A stretch of 64,000 bases of DNA from Candidatus Rokuibacteriota bacterium (GTDB taxonomy: Bacteria; Methylomirabilota; Methylomirabilia; Rokubacteriales; CSP1-6). The notes beneath the pieces were generated by a model. It searched no databases. It had not been told where the DNA came from and worked only from the letters and a program-made list of their open reading frames with translations. Shown one piece after another: positions 7-48,243 of the stretch (the stretch's first letter is position 1; each line of letters starts with the position of its first letter). The stretch lies in NCBI GenBank assembly GCA_003221695.1, contig QHSX01000042.1:62001-126000 (forward strand), written 5' to 3'. A program made the position numbers and the translations under genes.

Positions 7-1293
7 ATGGCAACGATCCGACTCAGCCGTCGGATGTTTCTCAGAACCGCCGCGGCGGGCGCGGCCGTCGGCGGGGCGCCGCGCGCGCTCCGCGCCCGGC
101 CGACCACCTTCAAGGTCGGCGTCATCCATCCCGTGACGGGCCCGCTCGCCGAGCCGGGGCAGGCGTGCCGCCTCGGCGCTCAGCTGGCCACCGACGCGAT
201 CAACGCGGCGGGCGGCATCAAGTCGCTCGGCGGGATGAAGCTGGAGCTACTGTTGGGCGACACGCAGACGAAGCCCGACCTCGGACGCCTCGAAGCGGAG
301 CGCGTCGTCAACCAGGGCGCGCGGATGCTCATGGGCTCGTTCGACTCCGGCTCGACCGCGGCAATGGTGTCGGTCGCCCAGCAAAAGCGCGTGCCGTTCC
401 TCGTGGACATCGCGGCGGCCGACCCGATCACGGCCAACGTCGCGAAGGCGGTGAAGGAGGGAACGCAGAAGGTCCAGTACGTCTACCGGAACTTCCCGAC
501 CGGCTCGAGCTTTGGCCGCCTGGCCGTCCGGTACTTCGACGAGATCTTCGCGGCGGCGGGCGTCGCGCCGAAGCGGGTCGTGCTGATGTACACGAACGAC
601 CTCTTCGGCCAGAACCAGTCGAAGGGGTTCCTCGCCGCGCACAAGGCGGCGAGCCCGTCATGGCGGATCGTCGAGGTCATCCCCTGGCCGGAGCCGCCCT
701 CCAACCTCTCGACGGAGGTCTCGCGGGCGAAGGCGGCGAAGCCCGACGTCATCGCGCCGATCACCCGCCCGGCGAGTGCGCAGCTCCTGCTGCCCGAGCT
801 CCGAAAGCAGCGCGTCGAGGTCATGGGCATCGTCGGCCCCGGCAGCCCCGGGCTCTACGAGGCGGGCCAGCTCGCGGCGCTCCGGGAGGATCTCGAGTAC
901 GTGATGGACAACCTGCCGTCGTGGCCCAATTTTAGGAAATCGCGGACGCCGCAGGTGGCGGAGGAGTACCGCAAGCGATCCGGCGGCAAGACCTTCGACA
1001 CGAACGCCGTCGCGTCGTACGACGGGATCCGCATCATCGCCGATGTCCTCGAGCGGACGGGGCGCGAGGCGCTGCTGGACACGGACGGTCCGGAGGCGAT
1101 CGTGGAGGCGATGAAGAAGACCACCTTCAAGGACGTCCTCGCCGTGGCGGCGGGTCCGGTCGTCTTCGACGAGCTCGGCGATAACCCCAACGCTTCGACG
1201 GCGATGATCCAGATCCTCGGCCGCAAGCCGGTCGTCGTCTGGCCCAAAGACGCCGCGGTGCAGAAGTTCGTGTTCCCGCGGCCCAAGGCCTAG
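7..1293 (+). CDS. Branched-chain amino acid-type ABC transporter substrate-binding protein, Tat-exported
   Basis: The 428-residue product begins with a twin-arginine signal (SRRMFLRT at about residues 7-14, then an Ala-rich stretch). The mature part opens with FKVGVIHPVTGPLAEPG, the usual start of a Peripla_BP_6 (LivJ/LivK-type) binding protein. It should capture an amino acid or organic acid outside the membrane and hand it to a Liv permease. The ATG at position 7 is the first possible start in the window and leads straight into the signal, so it is probably the true one. No permease or intact ATPase lies downstream; what follows is the relic of a livF gene. The partners are therefore either upstream of the window or lost. 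Substrate unknown. Confidence 0.9.
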   Translation: MATIRLSRRMFLRTAAAGAAVGGAPRALRARPTTFKVGVIHPVTGPLAEPGQACRLGAQLATDAINAAGGIKSLGGMKLELLLGDTQTKPDLGRLEAERVVNQGARMLMGSFDSGSTAAMVSVAQQKRVPFLVDIAAADPITANVAKAVKEGTQKVQYVYRNFPTGSSFGRLAVRYFDEIFAAAGVAPKRVVLMYTNDLFGQNQSKGFLAAHKAASPSWRIVEVIPWPEPPSNLSTEVSRAKAAKPDVIAPITRPASAQLLLPELRKQRVEVMGIVGPGSPGLYEAGQLAALREDLEYVMDNLPSWPNFRKSRTPQVAEEYRKRSGGKTFDTNAVASYDGIRIIADVLERTGREALLDTDGPEAIVEAMKKTTFKDVLAVAAGPVVFDELGDNPNASTAMIQILGRKPVVVWPKDAAVQKFVFPRPKA

Positions 1294-37846: not shown

Positions 37847-39755
37847 GCGCCTGACGCTTCCGCGGCTCTTGGTGAGGAACGCCCGCGACCTGCGCGAGCG
37901 CCCCGCGATCCGCGAGAAGGATAGAGGCATCTGGCAGACGTGGACGTGGGGACAGTACCACGGCGAGGTCCGGGACTTCGCGCTCGGTCTCGCCGCGCTC
38001 GGCTTCACCCGCGGCGAGCGCCTCGCGGTGATCGGCGACAACCGGCCGCGCCTGTACTGGGCCCAGCTCGCCGCGCAGGCGCTCGGCGGCGTCTCGGTCC
38101 CCGTCTACCAGGACTCGATCGCCCGGGAGCTCGCCTACGTCTGGAACCACGCGGAGTGCGTGATCATCGTCGCCGAGGACCAGGAGCAGGTGGACAAGGT
38201 CCTCGCGCTCCGGAACGAGCTGCCCGCGCTGCGTCTCGTCGTCTACGACGATCCGCGCGGGATGCTCCACTATCGCTACGACTGGCTCAGGTCGTTCCAG
38301 GAGGTGCAGGAGCTCGGCCGGACGTTCGGCCGGGAGCACCCGGGCCACTTCGAGGTCGAGGTCGAGCAAGGTCGGCCCGACGACGTCGCGTTCATCTGCT
38401 ATACCTCGGGGACCACGGGGAGCCCGAAGGGCGCGATGCTCACCCACGCGAATGCGGTCGTGACGGCCGAGGTCGCCGCCCGGGCCGAGGAGTTCCGCGT
38501 CGACGACGACTACCTCGCGTATCTGCCGATGGCGTGGGTGGGCGACGCGTTCTACACGCTCGTCATGAGCCTCTACATCGGCTTCGCGTGCAACTGCCCC
38601 GAGAGCCCGGAGACGGTCCAGCGCGACCTGCGCGAGCTCGGACCGACGCTCGTGCTCGCGCCGCCCCGCATCTGGGAGAACATGCTGACCGGGGTGCAGG
38701 TCAAGGCGGCCGACGCCCCAGGGGTCAAGCGCCGGATCTTCGAGCGCTTCTGCGCCGCGGCCGAGCGCGCCGAAATCTTGAAGTCGGACGGCAAGCCCCT
38801 GCCGCTCGGGCTGCGCCTCGCCGTGGCCCTCGGCGAGTTCTTCGTCTACGGGCCGGTCCGCGACCAGCTCGGCCTGCGTCGCGCGCGCTGGGCGCTGACC
38901 GGCGGCTCACCGCTCGGGCCCGACACGTTCCGGTTCTTCCGGGCGATCGGCGTGAACCTCAAGCAGGTGTACGGCTCCACCGAGACGACCGGCCTCGTCT
39001 CGCTCCAGCCGAGCGCCGAGGCCAACCCGACGACGGCCGGGCGCCCGTGCGCCGGCATCGACGTGCGGATCGCAGAGCGCGGGGAGGTGCTCGTCAAGAG
39101 CGCCGGGATCTTCAGGGGCTATCTCAAGAACGAGGAGGCGACCCGGGAAGTCATCGACGAGGACGGCTGGTTTCACACGGGCGATGCCGGGTTCATCGAT
39201 CCCCGCGGCCACCTCGTCATCATCGACCGGGCGAAGGACGTGGGCGCGCTCGTCGACGGCACGCCGTTCGCCCCCCAGTTCATCGAGAACAAGCTCAAGT
39301 TCAGCCCCTACATCCGCGAGGCGGTCGCCTTCGGTCACGCGCGCCCGTTCGTCGCGGCGATGATCGCGATCGACCCGAACACGGTCGGCAACTGGGCGGA
39401 GCGGCGCGGGCTCCCGTACACGAGCTACACGGACCTCTCCCAGAAGCCCGAGGTGCGCGAGCTGATCCGGGAGGAGGTCAGGAAGTGCAACGCCACGCTG
39501 CCCGACGTGACGAAGGTCCGGCGCTTCCTCCTGCTCACGAAGGACCTCGACGCTGACGACGCCGAGGTCACCCGCACGCGCAAGGTTCGCCGGGGGTACG
39601 TCGCCGAGAAGTACGCCACCGTGATCGACGCCTTCTACGGGGGGCGGGACGAGGTCGAGCTGACCACCACGATCACCTACGAGGACGGCCGGCAGGCCGC
39701 GCTCCGGTCGCTGGCCCGCGTCCAGGACGCGGAGGAGATCGCCGCGCATGGTTGA
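37839..39755 (+). CDS. Long-chain-type acyl-CoA synthetase (AMP-forming), module B
   Basis: The 638-residue enzyme is a paralogue of the synthetase at 30110: FICYTSGTTGSPKGAMLTHA, YLPMAWVGDAFYT, KQVYGSTETTGLV, WFHTGDAGFIDPRGHLVIID. It would activate an acid at its carboxyl group using ATP and CoA. The gene is embedded between livG and livH and overlaps both by eight bases, so it is translated together with the transporter. This argues that it acts on the imported compound. The start is the GTG at 37839, where the similarity to the paralogue begins (LTLPRLLVRNARDLRER). Confidence 0.92.
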   Translation: MAERLTLPRLLVRNARDLRERPAIREKDRGIWQTWTWGQYHGEVRDFALGLAALGFTRGERLAVIGDNRPRLYWAQLAAQALGGVSVPVYQDSIARELAYVWNHAECVIIVAEDQEQVDKVLALRNELPALRLVVYDDPRGMLHYRYDWLRSFQEVQELGRTFGREHPGHFEVEVEQGRPDDVAFICYTSGTTGSPKGAMLTHANAVVTAEVAARAEEFRVDDDYLAYLPMAWVGDAFYTLVMSLYIGFACNCPESPETVQRDLRELGPTLVLAPPRIWENMLTGVQVKAADAPGVKRRIFERFCAAAERAEILKSDGKPLPLGLRLAVALGEFFVYGPVRDQLGLRRARWALTGGSPLGPDTFRFFRAIGVNLKQVYGSTETTGLVSLQPSAEANPTTAGRPCAGIDVRIAERGEVLVKSAGIFRGYLKNEEATREVIDEDGWFHTGDAGFIDPRGHLVIIDRAKDVGALVDGTPFAPQFIENKLKFSPYIREAVAFGHARPFVAAMIAIDPNTVGNWAERRGLPYTSYTDLSQKPEVRELIREEVRKCNATLPDVTKVRRFLLLTKDLDADDAEVTRTRKVRRGYVAEKYATVIDAFYGGRDEVELTTTITYEDGRQAALRSLARVQDAEEIAAHG

Positions 39756-40641
39756 ATGGCAGTTCACCCTGCTCCTGCTCTCCAACGGCCTGCTCATCGG
39801 GCTCATGTACTCGCTGATCGCGCTGGGGTTCGTCCTCGTCTACAAGGCGACGGACGCGATCAACTTCGCGCAGGGCGAGTTCGTCATGATCGCGGGCTTT
39901 GTCGTCGCGGTCGCCCTCGGCGCGTACGGCGCGCCGCTGTGGCTGGCGGTCCCCCTGGGGCTCGCCGCCATGGTCGCGTTCGGCTTCGGCCTCGAGCGCG
40001 TGATGCTCCGGCGTCTCATCGGGCGCCCGATCATTGCCGTCGTCATGGCGACGATCGGCCTCGCGGCCATCCTGCGCGGCGTGGGGCCCCTCACGTGGGG
40101 CGCGGAGACGAAGCCGCTGGTGCTTCCGATCAGCGATGAGCCGTTCATCCTCGGGCCCCTCTTCGTCCCGCCGATCCAGCTCCTCGGCGCGTCGGTCAGC
40201 ATCGTCTTCCTCGGAGTCTTCGGCTGGTTTTTCCTGAAATCGCGGAAGGGGATCGCGATGCGCGCCATCGCTGACAGCCAGCAGGTCGCGATGGCGATGG
40301 GGATCAACGTCGAGCGCTACTTCGCGCTCGCGTGGGCGATGACGGGAGTCGTCTCGGCGCTGGGCGGGGTGATCTGGGGCAGCATGCTGGGCGTCGATGT
40401 GCACCTCTCGCTCGTCGGCTTCAAGGTCTTCCCGGTGGTGATCCTGGGCGGCCTCGACTCGATCCCGGGGGCGATCCTCGGTGGGCTGATCGTCGGCGTC
40501 GTGGAGAACGTGGCGGCGGGCTACGTCGATCCGTACGTCGGCGGCGGGACGAAGGACTTCGCGCCGTACGTGCTGATGATCCTGGCGCTCATGATCCGGC
40601 CGTACGGGATCTTCGGCAAGCGCATCATCGAGCGCGTATGA
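39748..40641 (+). CDS. livH: Liv-type ABC transporter permease LivH (module B)
   Basis: The 297-residue membrane protein shows LLIGLMYSLIALGFVLVYKA, NFAQGEFVMIAGF, RAIADSQQVAMAMGI and LGGLDSIPGAILGGLIVG. It overlaps the ligase gene and is followed, unusually for this dense operon, by a 196-bp gap that holds a long inverted repeat before livM. Confidence 0.93.
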   Translation: MVEWQFTLLLLSNGLLIGLMYSLIALGFVLVYKATDAINFAQGEFVMIAGFVVAVALGAYGAPLWLAVPLGLAAMVAFGFGLERVMLRRLIGRPIIAVVMATIGLAAILRGVGPLTWGAETKPLVLPISDEPFILGPLFVPPIQLLGASVSIVFLGVFGWFFLKSRKGIAMRAIADSQQVAMAMGINVERYFALAWAMTGVVSALGGVIWGSMLGVDVHLSLVGFKVFPVVILGGLDSIPGAILGGLIVGVVENVAAGYVDPYVGGGTKDFAPYVLMILALMIRPYGIFGKRIIERV

Positions 40642-40675
40642 GCGCCCCGTCCATCCGCCCGATCACGCAGGGGAA

Positions 40676-40805
40676 CCGGGGGGTGGGGGGTGGCTCGACC
40701 ACGCGGCGCGCGCGCGCATGGCCCGTCGCGGCTGGGCTCCATCCGGACGCGCCGCCTCCGCATGCGACGCGGCGGGAACGGGTCTCTCCACCCCCCACCC
40801 CCCGG
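40676..40805. repeat. Perfect 18-bp G-rich inverted repeat enclosing about 94 bp
   Basis: CCGGGGGGTGGGGGGTGG at 40676-40693 is the exact reverse complement of CCACCCCCCACCCCCCGG at 40788-40805. The left arm has G-runs able to form a G-quadruplex on the plus strand, the right arm on the minus strand. The enclosed bases are GC-rich and contain no plausible gene. The element fills the gap between livH and livM of module B and would form a strong RNA hairpin in the polycistronic message. Confidence 0.7.
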
Positions 40806-40837
40806 CACCCCTGCGCGTCGAGCGTCTGGAGTTGCCC

Positions 40838-41905
40838 ATGATCCATCGCGAGTGTGGGGTGCTCAAGACGACGTACGAGGCCGACATGGCCCTGTACCCA
40901 CTGCCCATCGCCCGCTGGACCGTCGCGGCGCTCGCCGTACTCTTCTTCCTCGTGCTGCCGTTCAGCGTCCACGAGTACTACCTGTCGATCGTCAATCTGA
41001 TCGCGATCGCCGTCGTGGGTGCGCTCGGGCTCAACATCCTCGTCGGCTCCACCGGCCAGATCTCCATCGGCCACGGAGCCTTCATGTCGGTCGGCGCCTA
41101 CACGGCCGCGAACTTCGCGGTCCGCCTCGGCGCGCCGTTCTGGCTCGCGCTCCCGCTCGGCGGCGCCATGGCCGCGCTCGTCGGCGCCGTCGTCGGCATC
41201 CCCTCACTCCGCATCAAAGGGCTCTACCTGGCGATCGCCACGCTCGCGGGCCAGCTCATCATCGAGTGGACCATCAACCACGTCACGTGGATCTCGGGCG
41301 GCGTCCAGGCGTCGATCGAGATGCCGCGCCCGGCGTTCCTCGGTGTCGAGATCGCGTCCCAGCGCGGGATGTATTTTTTCCTGATGTTCTTCGTCGTGCT
41401 CGCGGTCGTCGGCACCCTGAACCTGCTGCGGAGCCGGATCGGCCGGGCCTTCATCGCGATCCGCGATCACGACATCGCCGCGGAGATCATCGGGATCAAC
41501 ATCTTCCGCTACAAGCTCCTCGCGTTCGCGATCTCGTCGTTCTACGCGGGCGTGACGGGCGTCCTCTACACGTACTACCTGGGGATCGCGAACTACGAGC
41601 AGTTCCAGATCACGGTGTCGATCGACTACCTGGCCATGATCATCATCGGGGGCCTGGGCTCGGTGCTCGGCGCCATCTTCGGCGCGATCTTCGTGACGCT
41701 GCTGCCGATCGTCATCCGGTACGCCATGGAGGCGCTCGGCGGGCTGGTGTTCTCCCAGGCGTCGGTCCTCAACATCATCCCGAACCTCCGGCTCATCCTC
41801 TTCGGGACGCTGATCGTCTTTTTCCTGGTCGTCGAGCCGGAAGGGTTGAACCGCCTCTGGCGAAATATCCGGAACTACTTCCGGGTCTGGCCCTTCGCGT
41901 ACTGA
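40838..41905 (+). CDS. livM: Liv-type ABC transporter permease LivM (module B)
   Basis: The 355-residue permease has GLNILVGSTGQISIGHGAFM, RIKGLYLAIATLAGQLI and RIGRAFIAIRDHDIAAEIIG. I take the ATG at 40838 because it gives MIHRECGVLKTTYEADMALY, parallel to the module A LivM N-terminus. The longer frame from about 40718 would translate the inverted-repeat element. Confidence 0.92.
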   Translation: MIHRECGVLKTTYEADMALYPLPIARWTVAALAVLFFLVLPFSVHEYYLSIVNLIAIAVVGALGLNILVGSTGQISIGHGAFMSVGAYTAANFAVRLGAPFWLALPLGGAMAALVGAVVGIPSLRIKGLYLAIATLAGQLIIEWTINHVTWISGGVQASIEMPRPAFLGVEIASQRGMYFFLMFFVVLAVVGTLNLLRSRIGRAFIAIRDHDIAAEIIGINIFRYKLLAFAISSFYAGVTGVLYTYYLGIANYEQFQITVSIDYLAMIIIGGLGSVLGAIFGAIFVTLLPIVIRYAMEALGGLVFSQASVLNIIPNLRLILFGTLIVFFLVVEPEGLNRLWRNIRNYFRVWPFAY

Positions 41906-48136: not shown

Positions 48137-48162
48137 GAGCGGGTCGCGATGACTGTGTTCGA

Positions 48163-48225
48163 GCGCCGGCTTTGCCGGCGCAATCGGATTCTGGGGGTGG
48201 CTCGGAGGGGGCCATCGAGGCCCCC
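48163..48225 (+). terminator. Two GC hairpins between the SDR and PfkB genes
   Basis: GCGCCGGC-TTT-GCCGGCGC (48163-48181) is a perfect 8-bp stem. GGGGGCC and GGCCCCC around ATCGA (48207-48225) form a second stem followed by TT. The second resembles the hairpin at 26292. The TTG at 48172 lies in the loop of the first stem. Confidence 0.45.
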
Positions 48226-48243
48226 TTCGACTTAGGAGCGGTC

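Follow-up and report, generated by a model that had tools for sequence, protein, structure and literature searches.

Within a liv operon of the window (the whole stretch of 64,000 nt analysed here, to which positions refer unless a locus is named), a livH-type and a livM-type permease gene, both matching PF02653 (BPD_transp_2), flank a gap that holds a palindromic element (Table 1). By crude gene calls this is the only long gap in the operon, as the first-pass annotation had described it, and in the list of open reading frames the livM frame stays open upstream as far as an ATG at 40718, within the element. The two 18-base arms of that annotation, said to enclose about 94 bases, proved exact: the perfect portion of the left arm reads CCGGGGGGTGGGGGGTGG, its reverse complement forms the perfect portion of the right arm, and the spacer measures 94 nt. 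The gap contains no longer perfect inverted repeat, and the maximum in mononucleotide shuffles (n=200) was 13 nt; a repeat finder lengthens the arms to 35 nt, with a complementarity of 86%. The very stable stem expected between livH and livM was recovered as a predicted fold, since the RNA of positions 40642-40838 folds at -129 kcal/mol (z -4.84) and none of 200 dinucleotide shuffles equalled it.

The idea that the arms could form G-quadruplexes fared worse, as neither window arm matches four runs of three or more G with loops of 1-7 nt. Across the family described below, the canonical motif occurs in 29 of 166 left arms vs 15 of 166 after arm shuffling, and conserved G-quadruplexes were rejected.

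Table 1. Element and neighbouring genes in the livH-livM region of the window
Feature	Position	Strand	Remarks
livH-type permease, upstream neighbour	39748..40641	+	PF02653; stop TGA
livH-livM gap with element	40642..40837	+	livH stop codon to inferred livM start, 196 nt
Left quasi-palindrome arm	40666..40700	+	35 nt; perfect 18-nt portion 40676-40693
Conserved core GACCACGCGG...GGCTGGGCTCCA...GGGAACGGGTC	40697..40784	+	88 nt; opposite orientation in the G001 ortholog
Right quasi-palindrome arm	40781..40815	+	35 nt; perfect 18-nt portion 40788-40805
livM-type permease, downstream neighbour	40838..41905	+	PF02653; start inferred from homology

A dispersed family of nested palindromes

Further places similar to the element turned up when its DNA was searched for in the own genome (4.6 Mb, 109 contigs). 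A covariance model built from 52 copies and applied at E <=0.001, which scored a restricted number of candidates in each genome, found 9 copies in the own genome, which answers the earlier call for further copies; 21, 5 and 16 were found in three genomes of the same genus, 33 in G010, 34 in G016 and at least 70 in G024, and the model contributed a single weak match in G005. The DNA search identified 18 carriers among 60 genomes, own genome counted, three of them (G018, G025 and G035) on the strength of single weak matches. All carriers fall in one family, of which 36 genomes were searched, and none was found among the other 24. An exact pattern recovered at least 98 stretches from GTDB contigs and, among the matches listed, 96 of 98 were titled Rokubacteria; the remaining two, titled Chloroflexi and Actinobacteria, come from the soil series that also yielded many Rokubacteria, and our guess is that they are misbinned contigs. 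The element has no match in plasmids, phages, E. coli genomes or IMG/VR, and by the blastn search of E. coli genomes (word 11, E 1e-5) the element is not an E. coli REP or ERIC by sequence. We found no open-licence paper combining 'Rokubacteria' with 'miniature inverted-repeat', and judged by their titles none of those combining 'Rokubacteria' with 'palindromic' concerns such an element.

The core, from GACCACGCGG to GGGAACGGGTC with the middle block GCGGCTGGGCTCCA, measures 85-90 nt in 88 copies, a range that was imposed. The arms of about 35 nt vary in sequence from copy to copy and keep their complementarity: in 103 copies, 32-nt arms compared after reverse complementation agreed at 0.86 within a copy vs 0.66 between copies, and the excess fades past about 40 nt from the core. 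Cells of the stem with a double change numbered 77, vs 31.3 +- 4.7 in shuffles, and the five column pairs that covary most strongly in 129 copies are stem pairs. According to the first-pass annotation, the same arms at random intergenic sites would weigh against a function in the operon; the element does recur at unrelated intergenic sites, but an exact arm of the form G5+TG5+ is present in only 1 of 170 copies. Insertion into existing terminator hairpins was considered because the arms differ between copies, and it was rejected as a general rule, the empty folP, liv and L033 sites being too short for such arms.

When the outer flanks were printed, a second, outer repeat was seen, CTAGTGT(T/C)CCGTC..GAAGTCATG. 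It was scored over 25 nt, with up to 7 substitutions allowed, in 170 copies, which are the core-HMM finds in fetched loci and represent each genome partially (e.g. 14 of the 70 of G024). Both sides carry it in 33 copies, one side in 19 and neither in 118; shuffled flanks matched in 2 of 340 cases, and at least one of the one-sided hits resembles chance. Copies with outer repeats on both sides, here called full-length, span 213-263 bp (median 259 bp). As a genome pattern with up to 3 mismatches, the outer repeat was found in 10 of 15 carrier genomes, with 0 hits for the reversed control and none in the own genome. The window copy displays the inner unit, core and arms, only: a substitution-only test allowing up to 7 substitutions detected no outer repeat within 130 nt on either side of it, nor at the other 8 own-genome copies, and the single own-genome hit, near L004, lies 129 nt away with 7 mismatches. 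By eye, G024 contains a second shell type. Locus L359 was tried as a core-less MITE and rejected, as it is an internal deletion derivative.

Two further observations were made along the way. At L043 (core 1008-1101, minus strand) an arm mirrors the end of the upstream gene, including its stop codon (AGCGTAGC / GCTACGCT), as if arms were growing outward through copying of the flank. Elsewhere in the window, positions 48154-48230 (+) hold two GC-rich hairpins linked by an invariant-looking CGCAATC stretch; this unit resembles a recurrent double hairpin of terminator type, and similar units adjoin the element copies L002, L016, L017 and L046.

Insertion sites and orientation

The outer ends read CTAG in 49 of 66 cases, and the CTAG of 32 outer-repeat ends (85 in all) incorporates the TAG stop codon of the neighbouring gene. 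This tetranucleotide is strongly avoided in the window, with 18 occurrences vs 178 expected from base composition, of which genes contain 2, TAG stops account for 7 and intergenic DNA holds 9. At the L327 site of G015 the element-free flank ends in CTAG; the opposite flank is not colinear. By crude gene calls, 66 of the 170 copies lie between tandem genes on the strand of the core and 32 between tandem genes on the other strand (p 0.0008), 45 are placed between convergent and 5 between divergent genes, 7 overlap a gene and 15 are at contig ends; the strand bias is apparent only in this count, an earlier one of 88 copies having given 34 and 25. The frequent coincidence of CTAG ends with the TAG stop of the neighbour would explain why copies stand mostly behind genes. 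CTAG targeting is sufficient for the preference for gene 3' ends, and leaves the excess on the gene strand unexplained. From the CTAG ends and outer terminal repeats we infer a MITE whose targeting resembles that of IS630 or IS5. The window copy bears no sign of CTAG insertion, as the gene upstream of it ends in TGA and no outer repeat accompanies it.

Some copies reach into genes. One lies in frame, inside the coding sequence and without outer repeat, in a folP-like gene (PF00809; L005:998-2023, +) of G000 and G001. At this site the loop is short in six relatives, and G002, G006 and G010 have loops as well. An ImuB/DinB-type gene (PF00817) is likewise overlapped by a copy (L008; L284:6727-6812).

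Comparing orthologous operons, as had been advised, was informative. The livH-livM gap is element-free in 6 of the 9 relatives examined, measuring 6, 16, 18, 46, 46 and 48 nt (the 16-nt gap is that of G010, which at about 60% protein identity is perhaps not orthologous), and in the sole same-genus ortholog, that of G001, with a gap of again 196 nt, the core is inverted. These results lend no support to the view that the element sets Liv subunit ratios by built-in processing or attenuation. The G001 core aligns to that of the window with a local score of 168 antiparallel and 26 parallel, the window core against its own reverse complement scoring 34. The two other element-bearing gaps, of 235 nt in G028 and 459 nt in G020, hold elements built in the same way around a different class of core (CGACCACGCAAATC...ACGGGTCTC; L128, L129), present in G020 as two copies in opposite orientations; in this class the best two matches of the covariance model were weak (E 0.0087 and 0.047). 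The L033 site is empty in G000, filled in G001 and occupied in G003 by a truncated copy with a similar left arm and the opposite core.

Inversion is a recurrent feature of the family. Homologous flanks on both sides define 30 pairs among the fetched copies, of which 18 share their orientation and 12 are inverted, 16 further pairs with a single homologous flank having been left out; grouped by site, 13 of 24 orthologous sites are concordant and 11, the livH-livM site among them, show an inversion. Each of the 12 inverted pairs scores at least 3 times as high antiparallel as parallel; as the assemblies are MAGs, misassembly could account for some of the inversions. Judged by their cores, inverted partners are closely related, with a mean normalised rank of 0.18 against a null of 0.47 +- 0.06 (0/500). 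Their distal arms agree at 0.65 vs 0.61 +- 0.07 for random arms, and reach a local score of 43.5 vs 31.9 +- 11.3, by either measure above the 95% point in 1 of 12 pairs; in same-orientation pairs, many of them from closer relatives, the agreement is 0.75.

How such inverted orthologs arise can be read in several ways. They might stem from independent insertion at a preferred site, from excision and reinsertion by the transposase, or from recombination between copies, with no flipping between the arms. The distal arms, barely exceeding random, agree with this, as do the dissimilar cores in two same-orientation pairs (L004/L039 and L051/L103), the L320/L335 pair, in which an entire 261-bp element is inverted together with its outer repeats, and the other core class in the liv gaps of G020 and G028. 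We are nevertheless doubtful of this reading, because inverted partners are mutually near by core, similar left arms accompany opposite cores at the L033 site, and core orientation varies relative to the shell (among 33 full-length copies, 16 have one orientation, 10 have the opposite one and 7 are unclear). Whole-unit transposition cannot be the source of both core orientations within a shell; recombination between copies could. It is also conceivable, though we think it unlikely, that the inner unit of core and arms is an element of its own, whose asymmetric invariant blocks are read by some factor, which moves or exchanges between sites independently of the CTAG shell and is actively inverted; the two shell types and the G020/G028 core class would then be carriers or branches of one superfamily.

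Regulatory readings and candidate movers

A selected structured RNA or cis-regulatory element, e.g. a signal for processing or attenuation that affects neighbouring genes such as livM, would agree with the conservation of blocks in the core and its almost constant length, with the strongly covarying stem and with the position in transcribed 3' regions. The bias of tandem copies towards the gene strand also agrees with it, and is unexpected for a pure passenger. Even so, we regard such a signal as quite improbable, given that no consistent covarying helix was found within the core in 129 copies, that Rfam covariance models run over 40300-41200 gave 0 matches up to E 1, that the neighbouring genes are unrelated to each other, and that orientation flips at nearly half of the orthologous sites and liv operons without the element exist.

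REPs are palindromic, mostly intergenic and located at gene 3' ends, and the element resembles them in these respects; mobilisation as a REPIN by a RAYT (Y1) enzyme, or as a retroelement by a reverse transcriptase, is nonetheless extremely improbable, since both movers are mostly absent from carriers (Y1_Tnp in 1 of 18, as two fragments in G033, and RVT_1 in 5 of 18, neither in the own genome) and full-length copies end in terminal repeats with CTAG.

No autonomous partner was found through the outer-repeat pattern and the loci opened. The 30 loci with this pattern include one long pair, L353:1501-2873 (G015:C35:6151-7523), of 1373 bp, which encloses an IS110-type transposase (PF01548, PF02371) that splits the core of the element; we take this for an IS110 that inserted later, and an RNA-guided IS110 recombinase may target the element. 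Paired copies were also tried as composite transposons and rejected: metallo-beta-lactamase, amidohydrolase and weak Sdh_cyt type genes lie between those of L278, and no predicted gene lies between those of L279 and L280. Next to the single outer-repeat hits L345, L348, L350 and L366 there are genes of DUF1326, MacB/FtsX and ABC, glycosyltransferase and mandelate-racemase types, and no transposase.

Proposed origin and comparison with known systems

We propose that the window feature is probably one copy of a dispersed, non-coding, palindromic MITE-like family of Rokubacteria whose core occurs in either orientation. The family fits a MITE in being small, non-coding and dispersed and in having terminal inverted repeats. 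Of the roles put forward in the first-pass annotation, that of a small mobile element is the one that agrees with the dispersed copies in the own genome and the many in relatives, with element-free sites, and with full-length forms that have terminal inverted repeats and CTAG ends. A dispersed family, with a core that is often opposite at the same site in relatives, has the look of a genome passenger and not of a switch built into the operon. As a MITE-like family of Rokubacteria with a nested palindrome it is new; as regards the Liv operon it is ordinary, its effect on livH-livM being probably an incidental, very stable mRNA hairpin.

In the scheme that we favour for this MITE-like family, an IS630-type (TA in CTAG) or IS5-type (CTAG) transposase would have moved the full-length form, which would land at gene 3' ends because CTAG is rare in genes and yet present at stop codons. 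Copies like that of the window may have lost their outer repeats, or their inner unit may have its own means of moving. The hairpin would then evolve in situ through template switching, or short-arm recombination, between the arms, which may keep the arms matched and occasionally invert the core. Template switching between arms appears to us the simplest cause of the inversion, a preference that derives from arm homogenisation and spacer inversion both resulting from it in the published account (PMC8604942).

Sister species that carry this small palindrome at a shared site, some in one orientation and some in the other, provide a natural inversion set in which the rate and mechanism of flipping and of arm homogenisation are measurable in bacteria. 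CTAG targets at stop codons account for hairpins behind Rokubacterial genes with no need to invoke regulation, and a word of caution follows for metagenome-derived genomes, where a strongly covarying stem alone is not evidence of a regulatory RNA.

Comparable systems are described in the literature, and the likenesses below are to those descriptions. The Correia repeat enclosed element, a MITE of Neisseria, is small and non-coding, with terminal inverted repeats, a conserved core and a high copy number; its mRNA stem is cleaved by RNase III, and inversion has been reported (PMC10969869). The Rokubacterial family resembles it in its size, lack of coding capacity, terminal inverted repeats, conserved core and inversion, and differs in belonging to another phylum, in its CTAG targets at stop codons, in its two nested palindromes and in a core that flips within the shell. 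The Rickettsia palindromic elements (RPE) are palindromes of about 150 bp, some of which are in frame inside genes (PMC10969869); by description the folP copy is similar, whereas Rokubacterial copies overlap a predicted gene in just 7 of 170 cases, the rest being intergenic or at contig ends.

As regards targeting, MITEPsy1, of 100 nt and perhaps IS5-like, is described as inserting at CTAG or YTAA with duplication of the target (PMC3189936), and IS630 is described as preferring the TA within CTAG. The CTAG ends of the Rokubacterial element recall both, although the published terminal repeat of MITEPsy1 is unlike the Rokubacterial one, and filled sites cannot separate a TA duplication from a CTAG duplication. 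As regards inversion, template switching in yeast has been described as homogenising the arms of inverted repeats with inversion of the spacer, in coding genes and with inverted spacers of 2-5 bp (PMC8604942). Homogenised arms and an inverted spacer are likewise found in the Rokubacterial element, in which, in contrast to the yeast cases as there described, the core is about 90 nt long and belongs to a dispersed bacterial family.
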